From the NCBI GenBank assembly GCA_025917655.1, contig CP084611.1:3286001-3350000 (forward strand): a DNA stretch of 64,000 bases, read 5' to 3'. Below the pieces are notes generated by a model that saw nothing but the letters and a program-made list of their open reading frames with translations, made no database searches and was not told where the DNA came from. The stretch's first letter is position 1. Each line of letters begins with the position of its first letter. Origin of the DNA: Chlorella sorokiniana. Its lineage: Eukaryota > Chlorophyta > Trebouxiophyceae > Chlorellales > Chlorellaceae. The position numbers were made by a program, and so were the translations under genes. Positions 29,667 to 36,670 of the stretch are shown piece by piece.

Positions 29667-32600
29667 ATGCCCACGGCAGACTATGAGGCAGTCTGCGCCC
29701 AGCTCTCAACACCAGAGCTGGGCGCAGTGGCACAGAGTGAAAACATAGTGTGGGGTCAGCTGAAGGGCTACCCTTACTGGCCGGTGAGTTTGCATTGCAG
29801 CCGAGCTGCGCGCGGTCCCTGCAGCGCGGCGGCGTGCAGCCATTTTGCTGGCCAGGCAGGCGCCCCTCGCAACAGGCCCCTGCTGCTCAGCGTTGCATGG
29901 ATCTGATCAAGCGGCAGCCCTGATGTCGCTGCTGCCGTTGCACCGCTGCGCAGGCCCAGGTCATGGCCCCCAGCGTGGCTGCACGGGGACGAGCAGCTGC
30001 AGAGCTTCAAGAAGGGCAACGCGCACAGAGCGGTGCAGTTTTTTGGCGACACGAGCAAGAGCTGGTGGGTGCGCCCGGTTGCGTCTGTCATGGGTTCCTG
30101 CGCAGCCTGCCTCGCCCGCAGGCGCCGTGACCACGCCGCCCCCCTGCTGCCCACGCAGGCTGACCGACAACAACGTCGTGCCCTGGTTGGAGGGCTGCCG
30201 CAAGGGCATGCTGCACACCAAGAGCAAGGGCCTGCACTCCGCCGTGCTGGACGTCCATGCCTTTTTGCAGACGGGCGTGCTGCCGCTCGGCTGGTGGCAG
30301 AAGGCGCACAAGCTGTCGCCTGTGAAGAAGGCGGCGGCGGCGGCCCAGGCCGAGCTGGCCGCGCCCAAGGCCGCGCCCAAGAAGGCGCAGCCCAGGAAGA
30401 AAGCGCCCAGCAAGGCTGCCAGCACATCGGCGGCCACCGCTGCGGCCGCGGAGAGCGACGTGGAGATGCAGGAGGTTGAGGCGGCGGCCCAGCCCGACGT
30501 GCCAGCTCAGCGTGCAGTGCTAGCCACGGAGGCGGCACTCCCAGAGGCTGCCACGGAGTCCGCGCAAGTTGCTGCACCGCAGGCGGTTGGGGGCGCCACA
30601 CCCACGGGGCCGGCGACGGCGCCGCCGCAGCTGCAGCGCACGCTTCTGCGCAGCCGCCTGCTGCCAGCAACGGCGGCGGCAGCCTGGGCGGCGCCGCGCG
30701 GCCGGCGGGCAGCGGCTCCACCTCCACCCGCGACATGCTGCGCAGCGTGTTCAACCGCATCAAGCTGCTGCACCCAGCGGCGGCGCGCCTGGAGACCCCC
30801 AACTCGGTGGTGGACCTGCTGGCGGCGCTGCGCAAGCACTTTGGGCCCGCCATGGCCCTGGCCACGGAGCAGCTGGTGGGGGAGAGGGCTGCGGGGCGGG
30901 GTGGTGGTGCAGGCAGCTGGGTTGCCCTGGTGTTGTTGGCGGGCTCTGCTGCGACCCTTCTGCTGGTGGCTGGCTGCCCAGCACCAGCGCCGCACCCACC
31001 GCCCCCCCCCCCCCCCATCGCAGCGCGGCAAGGACGCCAACGACCTGCTGGCCGCGCTGTTCAGCTGGGCCGCGAGGCGGGCCATTGCCCCCGAGGACGT
31101 GGAGCGCTGCTTCCCGCTGGTGCCGCACGGCAAGGTGCTGATGCCCTACGCGCTGTGGGACCGCATCGCCGACCTGGGTGAGCCGGGCTGCTGCTGCTCT
31201 TCCTGTGGGAGCTCGTCGCAGGAGCGCCGCAACACATGCGCGGCGCACCTGGCAGGTTGTTGGTGCTGCTGCCCGCAGCGAACGCGGCCTCACTGTGCAC
31301 CAGGCTCAGCACGTGTGCTGCCCTGGTCGAGCTGCCCGCCGACCAGCCCACGCCTGCCCCTCCCTGCCAGGCCTGTACCCGCTGCACTGGCAGCTGCCGC
31401 TGACCAGGGACCAGGTGGAGCAGGGGCAGCGCGACGGCGCCGCGGGCAACCCGCACCCCACGCCGCCCCCGCCTGCCGCGTGGCGGCGCCTGGCGCGGCG
31501 GCCGTGCCTGCGGGCGCTGCGCCGCCCAAGAAGAAGCGGCCGGTGGAGGCAAGGAGCCTGAGCGAGCCGCGGGCGGCGCGAGGCGCGCAGCGGCAGCAGG
31601 GTGCGTGGCTTGTCTGTGGCGGCGCCGTGTCTGGGAGGGCGCCTGCCGCCCGTGTGGCTCGGCCCGGCCCGCCGCGCCCTCGCCACCAGCGCTGCCCCCC
31701 CCGGCCCCCCCCCCCCGCAGACCTGGATGCTGATTACGAGCCGGCTCAGCGCCCCGTGCGGCGCCACTCCACTCTGGCAGTCCCCTCCCGCTTTGCGCTG
31801 GAAAGCGCCGCCACCTGCGCCGCCGCCGACCGCCCGTCCAGCCCCTCGCTGACGGCGGAGGAGGAGGCGGCAGCGCGCGGGCGGTGGCGGCGGGGCGTGG
31901 CCCAGGCTTGGCGGTGTTGGATGGGCGCATCGTGAAGCCGCGCCCGGCAGCAGCTGGCCCGGCCCCAGCCCCGAGGGCTGGGAGGGGCGCGAGGCCCCGG
32001 CGCTGGAGGGGCGCAACGCGCTGCCCTCCTACCTCCACATCCGCCAGAACGTGTGGGTGTCCCGCCCCCGACCCAAGTGAGCGGGGGCCGCCGCCTCGCT
32101 GCCCAACCAGGCCGGCCACACCCACCAGCTTGATGCCCGCCCTGCGCTGTGGCTGCCCGCCTGACCGCCTGCTCTCGTTGGCGCCCCCTCCCCCTCGCAG
32201 GCGTCTGCAGCGCGACGACATCCCGGTGTGCAACTGCCATGCCCGGCGGGGCCGTCCGTCAGCAGCCGCAGGCAGGCGCTGGAGCAGGCGGCGGCGCAGC
32301 GGCAGCAGGCGGCCTGGGAGCAGCAGGCGGCCGCCGCCGAGCAGCAGCGGCTGGCGGCGCCGGCCCCCCGCCAGCTGCAGCGGCTGCGAGCTCCGCGCCG
32401 CTCACGCCCGCGCCCGAGGTGCAGCCAGCGCCCAGGCTGCGCCGCAGCAGGTGCCGGTGTGGGCGGATGCGGAGCCGGCCCCGCCCTCGCGCTCCCCCGA
32501 CGGCGGCAGCAGCGCAAGAAGCGCGTGCGGCGCACGGACTGGGAGGGGCGCAAGTGCGACTGGTGCGGCGTGACGGAGACCTCCAACTGGCGGCGCCACC

Positions 32601-35600
32601 CCGACAACCGCGACATGCTGCTGTGCAACCAGTGCGGCGGCTACGTGCGCAAGCACGGCAAGCTCAGCCAAGAGCGGCGCGACCGCGTGGCGGCGCAGCA
32701 GGTGGCGGTGGCCATGGCCACGGCGGCGGCGCCGCCGCCAGGCGCGGCGCCGCTGCACGCCGCCAACGGCCTGGGCGGGGCCGGGGCCGCCGGCGCCGCC
32801 TTCTCCCTGCCCAATGGCACCATGCCGCCGCTCTTCCAGGCAGCGCCGGTGACCATGCCGCCGCTGGGCACGCTGCCGCCCATGCCGCCGCCGGAGCTGC
32901 ACGCGGAGGGCATGGAGGTGGACGAGAAGGAGGAGGGGGAGGGGGCAGCGCAGCACGAGGCGCCGCCTATTGAGAACGCAGCGGCGTCGGAGTGCCTGCC
33001 GGGTGGCGCGGCCGAGCTGGCGGGCTTGGCACCCGTGGCAGCGCAGGCGCAGGTGCAGCAGCAGCAGCGGCAGCAGCAGGCAGGGATGGAGGCGGAGGAT
33101 GATGCGGCAGTGGCTGCCCTCCTCGCGGCGGCGTTTGCGCCGTGGCAGGCCCAGTTGACGGCGCTGCGCGAGCAGCGGCAGGCGGCGGCGGCGGTTGCGG
33201 CGGCGGCATGCGCGCCGTTTCAGGCGCAGCAGCCGGCCCCGATTGAGGTAAAGCTGGAGCCGCAGGCAGGTGGCCCCGCTGCCCCGCCCCCTGCGGCGAT
33301 GGCACCCAAGCTGGAGCAGCTGCCGGCAATGGCTGCCTGCTTGGAGGCTGCGGCACCAGCCGCGCAGCGCCGCATCTCAGCTGCCGCCGCGCCGCCGCTG
33401 CCGCCCCGACCCTCACCCGCACCGGCAGCGGCAGCCTGCGGCGAGCTGCGGCGGCGGGGCGGCGGCCGCGGCCCAGCCCCAGGTTGGCTGCGGCGACAGC
33501 TGCCTCAACCGCCTCAGCTTCATCCACTGCGACCGCTCCACCTGCCCCTGCGGCGAGCGCTGCACCAACCGCCCGTTTGTGGAGCTGGCCTCCCCCGCCA
33601 TGGAGGTCTTCCTCACCCCCGACAAGGGGTGGGGGTGCGCGCCTCCGCCTTCATCCCCCGCGGCTCGTTTGTGGTGGAGTACGCGGGGGAGGTGATTGAC
33701 GACCGGGAGTGCAGCCGGCGCGCGGAGGAGGCAAAGGCGCGCAACGAGCCCCACTTCTACATGATGGAGATGGCGCCCGGTGGGTGGGGGAGGCCAGCCA
33801 GGGGCTGCGCCCCACCGCTGGCGGCACTGGCAGGGGAGAGCAGCCTGGCGGGCCATCCCGTGCGGGCATAACAGCATAACAACCCAGCTGCCCAGCACCG
33901 CCGCTGCCCTCCCATACCACCACCCCCTTTGTCGCTTTGCTGCTGCCCAGGCCTCATCATCGACGCGCGCAGCAAGGGCAACGTGGCGCGCCTGCTCAAC
34001 AGCAGCTGCGACCCAAACTGCGAGACGCAGAAGTGGCACGACGCGGGCAACAGCGAGGTGGGGCGGGCAGCCGGGCTGGGCCAGCCCCAGGGCGCTGCAC
34101 CCACATGCACAGGGGCCCTGCCTCCCCCTGCGCCTGGGCGTCGCGTGGCTGCTGCACACCCGCTGAGGCAGCCACCCCCGTATGACACCCACAACCTCCC
34201 CCTCCACCCCCTCCACCCACCCACACACACACCCACCCACACACACGCACATGCTCAGGTTCGCGTGGGCATCTTCACGCTGCGCGATGTGCTGCCGGGG
34301 GAGGAGCTGACCTACGACTACCAGTTCCAGCACTTTGGGCTGGCGGCGGCGGCGGGGGCGTACCGCTGCAAGTGCGGCGCCCCCAACTGCCGCGGCACCA
34401 TGGACACCCACCCCGAGCGCACGCGGGTGGGCGCCCGCGGGGCTGGCTGCGGGGCTGGCTGCGGGGCTGTGGCTGCGGGGTGGAGCCGACGGGCCTGCTG
34501 GTAGGGCCTGATGGAAGCTGAGGGCTGCTGCCCACACGCACACCCCCACACGCGCCCCCTCCTCACCCAAGCGGGCCCTCAACCTCAGGGCCCCCCCCGC
34601 GCCTTCCCACATAACACCCCCTCCACACACACACACACACTCCCAACCCGCACCCCCTGGCAGGACTTTGGGCGCCGCCTGGACGTGTGGTGGCCCGCGG
34701 AGCGCCGCTACTTCCGGGGCACCATCACCGGGTACAACGCGGCGCAGCAGCGGCACACCGTCAAGTACGACGACGGCGACAGCGGGCGCCTGTTCCTGCC
34801 AGCAGAGAAGTACAGGTACGTGTACAGCGGGGACGGGAGGCACGCCAGGCTTGGGCGCTGCGAGGTTGGTTGCAGGACGGCCGGTGCCTAAACACCCCCG
34901 CAACGTGCCTCCTGCCCAGGTGGGTGGATGAGCACGGCCACGTGGTGGGCGACACACACGAGCCGCAGGCGGGGGCGGCGGCAGCCTTGCGCGCCAAGAA
35001 GCGCGGGGCGGCCGGCGCCTCCGACGGCAGCAGCGGCAGCGGCGGCGCCAAGCGCCAGAAGCGGGCCGCCCCCGATCCGCTGGGCGGCGTCGGCAGCAGC
35101 GGCAGCGACCTGCAGTCAGCGGGGGCCGCGCCTCCCGCTGCTCAGGCCCCAGGCGGCGACGCGGCCATGCCGCAGGCCGGCGACGAGCCGGCGCCGCCGC
35201 TGCAGCAGGGCGCGGTTGCGGCTGCGGCGGCCGCCCTCCCCGTCAGCCCTCGCGCGCAAATGGGCGCTGCCCCGCGCCGCTGCCCTTCCAGCAGGCCTCT
35301 CCCAACAAGGTGCTGGACACCTACACCGCCTTCAACCTGGCGGCGCAGCTGCCCGGCGCCGTGCCCGCGTCGGCCGCCGCCTGGGCGCTGCCGCCGCCGG
35401 TGGCGCTGCCGGCGGGGCGGCTGGACATCCCGGGGCTGCGCGTCCACGCCATGCCCAGCAGCCTGCTGCCGCCGCCCGCGCAGGCACGTGGGGGCGCGCA
35501 CAGGCCTTCCTTCACCTGTGCACTGCAGCCGGGTGTTCATGCACGCAGCCTGCGCGGCTTGCTGGTTGGGTTGTCCATCCGCGCGCGCTGCCCTCCCTCT

Positions 35601-36670
35601 GCCCCCCGCAGGCTGCCACGCTGCCGGAGGTGCCCCCTGGACACCACCAGCCCGCTGGCGGCGTCGGCCGTCGCCCCCTCCTTCGACTCCTTCTCCAGCC
35701 TGAAGCACCTGGCCGGGCTGACCCAGGAGCAGCAGGAGTTTGTGTGCCAGCTGTCGCAGTCCATGAGCAGCCCGCGGGCCAGGCGGCGCAGGCGCAGCTC
35801 AACGGCGGCTCGACCACGGTGAAGCAGGAGGCAGCTGCGGGGCTGGGGCCAGCGGCGCCGGCGCCACCCGCGTTTGAGCTGCCGCCAGGTGTTCCGCTGC
35901 AGGCGGGGCTTGTGGCCGGCAGCGCTGCGGCAGCATTGGCCGGGAGGCGCCGCGGCTGCAGCTGCGCGACCCTGCGCTGCAGCCTGTGGCGGGCACGCTT
36001 GGGCAGCGCCGCCTGCGCGACCCCTCCCTCAAGCCCGTCAGCGGCACCATCGGCCATCGGCGGGGCGGGCGCGGCGGGCCGCAGCCGGTGCTGGCGGAGG
36101 GGGAGGTGGCGCGGCCCAAGCGCACCGTGCGCCGCCCCGCCCGCCGCTTTGACGACGACTTTGAGGCGCCCGAAGCTGACTCGGACGAGGTGCGCGGGGT
36201 TGGCCGGCCCCCTCCCGCCTGCCTGCTGAAGCTGCGGGACTCAAGGGGTCCTGGCGGCAGCTCATCATGTGCCCTCAGTTCAGCTGCTTACCCTGCGGCT
36301 CCCCTCCTCCCCCCCTCTAACACCCATTCAGGACTACGTGCCGAGCGAGCGAGAGGAGCCGGCCTCGCCGCCGCGTGGCCACGCGAGGCCGCGGCCGGCG
36401 GTGGCCACCCTGCTGAGCCCCACCACGCAGGCGGCGGTCACCATGGCCAGCCTGCTGGGCCCGCAGGGCGGCATGCCGCAGGTGCTGCCGGGCGTGCGGG
36501 CGCCCAAGAAGGAGGGCAGCCCCGCCGGCGACGACGACGACCCCATCAAGGACCCAGACGTCACCCCGGAGGGGCTGTCCACCAGGTCCACCCAGCGGCG
36601 CGCTCCCATAGGTGGGCAGGGGGAGCCAGCAGCTGTGCGGCATGGTGGGTGCCTGGCCCCAGGACGCTAG
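29667..36670 (+). CDS. PWWP / GATA-finger / AWS-SET-postSET / Tudor-like histone lysine methyltransferase
   Basis: Chromatin regulator of the SET2/ASH1 class. An N-terminal PWWP domain ([15 protein letters not shown], intron, AQVMAPS..., [13 protein letters not shown]; 29667-30300) should bind methylated nucleosomes. A helical region follows ([20 protein letters not shown] near 30735). AWS starts at [19 protein letters not shown] and CNC (32030-32240), is interrupted by a GATA-type finger ([15 protein letters not shown]...[14 protein letters not shown], 32556-32660) and a Gln/Ala-rich stretch, and resumes at [20 protein letters not shown] near 33488. [23 protein letters not shown], then [15 protein letters not shown] near 33993, then [12 protein letters not shown] near 34291. 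Post-[16 protein letters not shown] near 34368. A Tudor-like segment follows ([20 protein letters not shown], 34682-34815). The catalytic NSSCDPN and ELTYDY motifs are intact. Downstream to 36670 it is low-complexity with acidic and basic patches. The end is uncertain: TAG at 36668-36670, or splicing into the B3 region. An alternative in-frame ATG lies at 29463. Confidence 0.88.
34439..34480 (+). repeat. Intronic tandem repeat, 12-nt unit
   Basis: About three copies of GGGGCTGGCTGC just after the donor that follows the post-SET exon. Confidence 0.6.

Follow-up and report, generated by a model that had tools for sequence, protein, structure and literature searches.

The AWS module is described in the excerpted text of PMC8593083 as a set of seven cysteines that bind two zinc ions. 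In the algae, the module is found in proteins that also carry a PWWP and a SET domain: the ASH1-like PWWP-AWS-SET proteins XP_001701055 and XP_002951402 of Chlamydomonas and Volvox are described in the available part of PMC3457860, and a form with an extra Tudor domain is tabled as class III-2D, marked for Chlamydomonas only, in the excerpt of PMC5725981. The subject of the present analysis is a gene with a similar domain order in Chlorella sorokiniana, located on contig CP084611.1 of assembly GCA_025917655.1 within a stretch of 64,000 nucleotides (positions 3,286,001 to 3,350,000 of the forward strand; below, the window, to which all coordinates refer unless another contig is named). In this gene a GATA-type zinc finger and its flanking linkers lie between two parts of the AWS cysteine cluster. 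We consider it likely that the order is truly nested, i.e. zinc ligands 1-2, a linker with the GATA finger, ligands 3-7 and then the SET domain, and on balance probable that the insertion of about 400 residues in the AWS loop helps to place the methyltransferase. This reading draws on the domains themselves, their order, the coding signal of the intervening stretch, and the gap of 12 residues at the same place in another AWS enzyme of the genome.

The first two ligands are encoded by Cys-Asn-Cys (CNC; 32229..32237, + strand, frame 0, with cysteine codons at 32229 and 32235), and ligands 3-7, as assigned by alignment, by the AWS core (33486..33563, + strand, with cysteine codons at 33489, 33501, 33528, 33543 and 33561, and one additional cysteine codon at 33549). 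The core opens with GCGDSCLNR, which begins at 33486, and from CNC to its first cysteine (33489) there are 1251 bases, that is 417 codons, in agreement with a preliminary description of the window, made from the letters alone, in which the AWS halves were set about 1.2 kb apart. All seven cysteines are found, two before the insertion and five after it, provided that CNC is part of the same protein; without CNC, five of the seven aligned zinc positions would remain. The Pfam domain search proposed at that stage recovers the AWS core with 47.3 bits (PF17907; cut-off 23.3; E 2.1e-12; 43.3 bits in the joined protein) and the GATA finger with 37.8 bits (PF00320; cut-off 26.8; E 1.4e-9). As the Pfam AWS model starts after CNC, the second half alone matches positions 3-36 of its 39 without a break. 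The insertion, which had been placed within AWS, therefore separates ligand 2 from ligand 3 of the seven-cysteine cluster, but falls just outside the Pfam model.

The upstream half consists of a 16-residue pre-AWS segment at the end of an exon (32027..32076, + strand), which aligns with SETD2 when joined to AWS-SET, and of a 13-residue segment with CNC. The intron between the two (32077..32200, + strand; donor 8.8 and acceptor 14.4 in one splice model, 8.9 and 10.8 in a self-trained model) interrupts the last codon of the pre-AWS segment, and the join is in phase. The short upstream peptide by itself gave no PDB match. Joined to the AWS-SET part, it was compared with one reversed control and came out ahead in all 35 PDB rows, with margins of 0.8-12.9 bits (SETD2, 7ea8: 188.0 versus 181.3 bits, difference 6.7; 6kqq: 179.4 versus 166.7, difference 12.7; ASH1L, 4ype: 169.0 versus 159.2, difference 9.8), and because the joined query does better in every row we take the upstream half to be AWS-related. 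A search of the genome (38.8 Mb in 15 contigs) for AWS gave four matches in two places. In the second AWS gene (L063, C7:506068-507455) the spacing is CQC-11 residues-GCG, i.e. a gap of 12 residues to the cysteine, which implies that a long loop at this place is not general in this genome.

The intervening stretch most likely belongs to a single large exon (32201..33779, + strand) that holds CNC, a linker, the GATA finger, a second linker, the AWS core and the start of the SET domain. Linker 1 (32238..32554, + strand, about 105 codons) is rich in Ala, Gln, Arg and Pro and shows several apparent one-base frame changes. Linker 2 (32663..33485, + strand, about 275 codons) shifts from frame 2 to frame 0 towards its end, and is composed for 31% of Ala, 15% of Pro and 9% of Gln (256 codons from 32672). 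The Gln/Ala/Pro-rich sequence that had been pointed out in this stretch is thus recovered in the composition of the linkers, which are mostly of low complexity and probably disordered. Two psi-K-x-E motifs occur in linkers of the methyltransferase, namely VKLEP near 33248 (linker 2) and VKQE near 35819; both are possible candidate SUMO sites.

A codon score trained on 5482 codons from outside the gene and applied in 120-base windows is positive in frame 2 at 32220-32399 and 32460-33299, in frame 0 at 33360-33659 and then again in frame 2; within the introns of the gene it is negative or near zero in all frames (maximum +0.06). A gene model was run under four settings, and versions that skip the insertion or read it as one exon were scored against the free model. 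Omission of the stretch costs 70.5-80.5 bits relative to the free model in all four settings, and 47-64 bits relative to one unbroken exon. This cost also speaks against the possibility that the GATA stretch is a cassette or alternative exon, coding but present in some transcripts only, so that the AWS loop would be shorter in the main form of the enzyme and the form with the finger would be an isoform. A skip could preserve the frame, which CNC and GCG share, and moderate splice sites do exist inside the insertion (donors at 32419-32457 with scores of 5.9-6.6; acceptors at 33381 with 6.3 and at 33483 with 3.8). Nevertheless, the splice model self-trained on 82 introns finds no usable donor within 180 bases 3' of CNC: between CNC and 32419 there are two GTs only, with donor scores of -1.6 and -1.7, under the 2% point (1.5) of the 82 introns. 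At least some 60 extra residues would consequently stay in the protein after a skip, and the acceptor that adjoins GCG falls only at the 7% point of the introns used for training. We regard a cassette exon as improbable, although the GATA stretch may be spliced out in part, or in some transcripts only. For the direct splice from about 32240 to about 33480 that had been named earlier as the event to look for, a usable donor near CNC is thus lacking, and moderate sites are found only further in. A broader splice-site argument, in which, with 12 hand-picked sites, no internal donor came up to 7.8 and no acceptor to 9.5, was weakened by leave-one-out and by the self-trained model; we retain only that CNC is without a nearby donor, and nothing wider.

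A further alternative is that the finger belongs to a separate or overlapping gene with its own transcript between or across the SET exons. That the frame of the finger differs from that of CNC and GCG, that GATA-like hits are numerous elsewhere in the genome (37 in all with E no higher than 1, that of the window included), and that a frame-1 ATG is present at 32239, next to CNC, would all fit such a gene. Against it, no frame-2 ATG occurs between the finger and the frame-2 stop upstream of it, the finger is on the same strand as the SET gene, frame 2 is free of stops from the finger into the start of SET, and a SET protein devoid of the upstream exon would miss two of the seven AWS zinc ligands. 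A separate gene is accordingly judged very unlikely. We gave no weight to the open frame 2 taken alone, as some forward frame was open in 249 of 2000 order-1 Markov copies of the stretch. Taken together, the coding signal, the lack of a donor near CNC, the lack of a frame-2 ATG before the finger and the homology of the upstream half to SETD2, NSD and ASH1L proteins favour the nested order put forward in the preliminary description.

CNC lies in frame 0, the finger in frame 2, GCG in frame 0 and SET in frame 2, and a single exon therefore requires frame changes. Along the coding stretches of the gene, such changes recur at 33627, within 32238-32510, at about 33350-33480 and at about 35763, and are mostly minus-one by the model: in the whole-gene model the ratio of minus-one to plus-one changes is 5:1, 7:4, 3:1 and 8:1 under the four settings. 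Because lost bases would give such a minus-one excess, the frame changes are most likely assembly errors. One of them, at about 33627, disrupts the conserved KGWG/R of the SET domain. Such changes at conserved places do indicate small errors, and could be taken to support an assembly artefact in a wider sense, in which a misjoin or polishing error put GATA sequence into a SET gene. However, no second copy of the stretch was found in the 38.8 Mb (the 46 other matches, with simple repeats skipped, span 33-148 bases at 70-97% identity), and there is no jump in guanine-plus-cytosine content, which ranges from 60 to 78% when the window is taken in 2 kb segments. That the GATA sequence was misplaced into the gene is for us extremely unlikely.

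A number of results weigh against the nested, single-exon reading. The codon score is negative in all three frames in the overlapping windows beginning at 32340, 32400, 33240 and 33300 (about 32340-32519 and 33240-33359). The free gene model tops one unbroken exon by 6.6-24.1 bits, and by the model's count such an exon requires between three and six frame changes. The free model chooses a 50-base pseudo-intron (32226-32275), which removes CNC, in all four settings, and adds weak introns at 32419-32509 in three of the four and over 33248-33380 in all four. The pseudo-intron at CNC is read by us as an absorption of frame changes, because the break in KGWG/R shows that such changes occur inside a conserved motif. 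Leave-one-out on the 12 hand-picked splice sites lowers the thresholds to 4.8 for donors and 2.7 for acceptors, and the best sites in the stretch exceed these values (up to 7.7 and 8.9, respectively), so that splicing at them is conceivable. The frame-1 ATG at 32239, together with the frame changes, weakens the argument from the missing frame-2 ATG. A structure model of the finger is of low confidence (mean predicted local distance difference test score 64.1), and a fold search with it returned no match at E <=0.001, nor did the best 50 of 192 matches include a GATA entry. Finally, comparison with other genomes did not reveal the same combination: in viral contigs, none of the 8 pattern stretches for the GATA piece and neither of the 2 for the AWS-SET part was confirmed as a relative, and at the bacterial and archaeal SET loci that match the AWS-SET part (22 of 61 pattern stretches, in genome contigs) a GATA-like pattern was seen in 0 of 22 within the DNA fetched.

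The finger itself (32555..32662, + strand, frame 2) has the C-x2-C-x19-C-x2-C arrangement followed by a basic tail. The arrangement had been correctly identified before, with coordinates 32556-32640 that need adjustment: the cysteine codons are at 32555, 32564, 32624 and 32633. In the genome scan it scores 42.6 bits. Its matches in the PDB are GATA-3 (E 1.1e-8) and GATA-1 (molecule name Erythroid transcription factor; E 1.3e-8), and, weakly (E 0.17), MTA1, a protein with the order BAH-ELM2-SANT-GATA. Where GATA-3 has TPLWRR and CNACGL, the finger has TSNWRR and CNQCGG. The Leu before WRR, the Ala of CNAC and the Leu of CGL are positions that we take to contact bases in GATA-1, and the finger carries Asn, Gln and Gly there. 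Gln at the position of the CNAC Ala is seen in 0 of the other 17 pattern rows, obtained from 20 scanned loci of the 37 GATA-like hits; one of the rows (from L028) looks false. Of these 37 hits, 15 lie in one cluster (C6:2208043-2240150, L068-L071), the rows of which mostly show a CSHC...LC pattern with x19 loops, and in many cases WRRHPAT or similar; the cluster looks like a local expansion.

Given the changed contact positions, we prefer contact with a nucleosome or a protein, or an altered DNA preference, to the reading of a classic GATA site. No result supports the earlier proposal of a finger that recognises DNA and links this recognition to the catalytic fold; a direct coupling of base-specific recognition to catalysis is possible, though not the most likely function. 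In the mechanism that we propose, one transcript would carry all parts of the protein, some 400 residues would loop out between ligands 2 and 3 while both AWS parts still fold round zinc, and the tethered finger would provide an extra contact with the nucleosome, with DNA or with a partner protein that positions the enzyme, alongside the PWWP domain and the Tudor-like segment. The loop insertion could also be a passive tether. A more elaborate version, namely an allosteric insert that senses sequence or nucleosomes within the catalytic module and is present in the AWS loop of every transcript, where the finger, on binding DNA or the nucleosome, would strain or steady the split cluster and thereby switch or aim the predicted histone H3 lysine 36 (H3K36) methyltransferase, strikes us as improbable. 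The nested architecture would also fit an ordinary loop expansion, i.e. GC-rich low-complexity growth in a tolerant loop with the finger as a functionless leftover, so that this option competes with the proposed role only. The Ala/Gln/Pro-rich linkers and the altered contact positions are in line with it, whereas the retention of the four zinc cysteines, WRR and the basic tail, along with the good Pfam score, suggests selection; we hold a mere leftover to be unlikely, yet worth keeping in view.

The gene as a whole lies on the + strand from about 29667, where the start codon was picked by eye, to at least 36600, and has many introns. The order of its domains is PWWP, GATA finger, AWS core, SET, post-SET and a Tudor-like piece. 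The N-terminal exons with the PWWP domain (29667..30475, + strand, end approximate; pieces 29667-29783, 29954-30064 and from 30159 on) give 53.5 bits in Pfam (cut-off 25.6, E 3.6e-14) in the joined conceptual protein, with an X at one frame change; the first exon alone gives 15.6 bits, under the cut-off. The position of the PWWP domain N-terminal to AWS-SET matches the algal PWWP-AWS-SET subclass (III-2D). SET and post-SET (33627..34426, + strand) are divided among three exon pieces (to 33779, 33951-34057 and 34259-34426) and the joined exons score 85.6 bits for SET (E 3.8e-24, cut-off 22.4); by piece, the first scores 21.4 bits, slightly under the cut-off, and the next 46.3. In the piece from 34259 the post-SET CxCxxxxC reads CKCGAPNC, and the Tyr of TYDY is present in ELTYDYQF. 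The SET motif NHSC is replaced by NSSC (33998-34009), an uncommon change near the cofactor site. After the post-SET follows the Tudor-like segment (34664..34815, + strand), with 24.2 bits for PTM_DIR17_Tudor, below the Pfam cut-off of 27.2.

By sequence comparison, the catalytic part is closest in the PDB to SETD2, NSD1-3 and ASH1L. The best match of the AWS-SET part is SETD2 (E 4.5e-51), and 6kqq, which we take to be NSD1, has E 1.5e-47. The gene thus most likely encodes a PWWP-AWS-SET-postSET-(Tudor-like) methyltransferase of an algal ASH1/NSD-like type, with H3K36 as its most likely target; given NSSC, H3K36 methylation is a predicted activity that should not be assumed. Among the bacterial SET loci, a SET protein on a Myxococcales metagenome-assembled contig (L041, 1325-1750) has a best segment 40% identical over AWS-SET query residues 36-182, and may come from contamination or be a fairly close relative of bacterial origin.

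If the proposed architecture is correct, an entire second zinc finger and about 400 residues can be accommodated between the zinc ligands of the AWS cluster, and nature offers an example of an H3K36 methyltransferase whose catalytic unit has a possible DNA- or nucleosome-binding module within it instead of next to it. The gene would then point to a possible non-animal recruitment route for such enzymes and offer a natural scaffold for tests of AWS folding. We consider the architecture unusual, not revolutionary. No AWS-SET protein with a GATA finger is named in open-access titles and abstract openings, among the matches listed, and a literature search for insertions into conserved domains in algae gave nothing useful.

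The AWS-SET-postSET part is shared with SETD2/Set2 and ASH1L, and in SETD2 the alignment leaves 14 residues from CEC to the next cysteine, versus 417 codons here. To our knowledge, these proteins have no GATA finger, and the animal NSD1/2/3 proteins combine PHD fingers with a compact AWS and likewise have none. What the NSD proteins have in common with the present one is a PWWP domain before AWS-SET-postSET, in line with the available text of PMC3457860. The second AWS enzyme of the genome (L063) has AWS-SET in common, with only 11 residues between CQC and GCG. MTA1 resembles the present protein in having a GATA finger within a multidomain chromatin protein that is not a classic transcription factor; as far as we know, neither MTA1 nor Chlamydomonas Cre08.g358532, to which the same likeness applies, has a SET domain or a finger nested in another zinc module. 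Cre08.g358532 is given as GATA//BAH in a table in the excerpt of PMC8320531. With the ASH1-like proteins of Chlamydomonas and Volvox the order PWWP, AWS, SET is shared, and the Tudor-type extra in the excerpt of PMC5725981 may have a counterpart in the Tudor-like segment below the Pfam cut-off; the word GATA occurs nowhere in the available main texts of PMC5725981 and PMC3457860. PWWP-AWS-SET(-Tudor) proteins are thus already known in algae, and, as far as the open-access text searched shows, it is the GATA insertion alone that is new.

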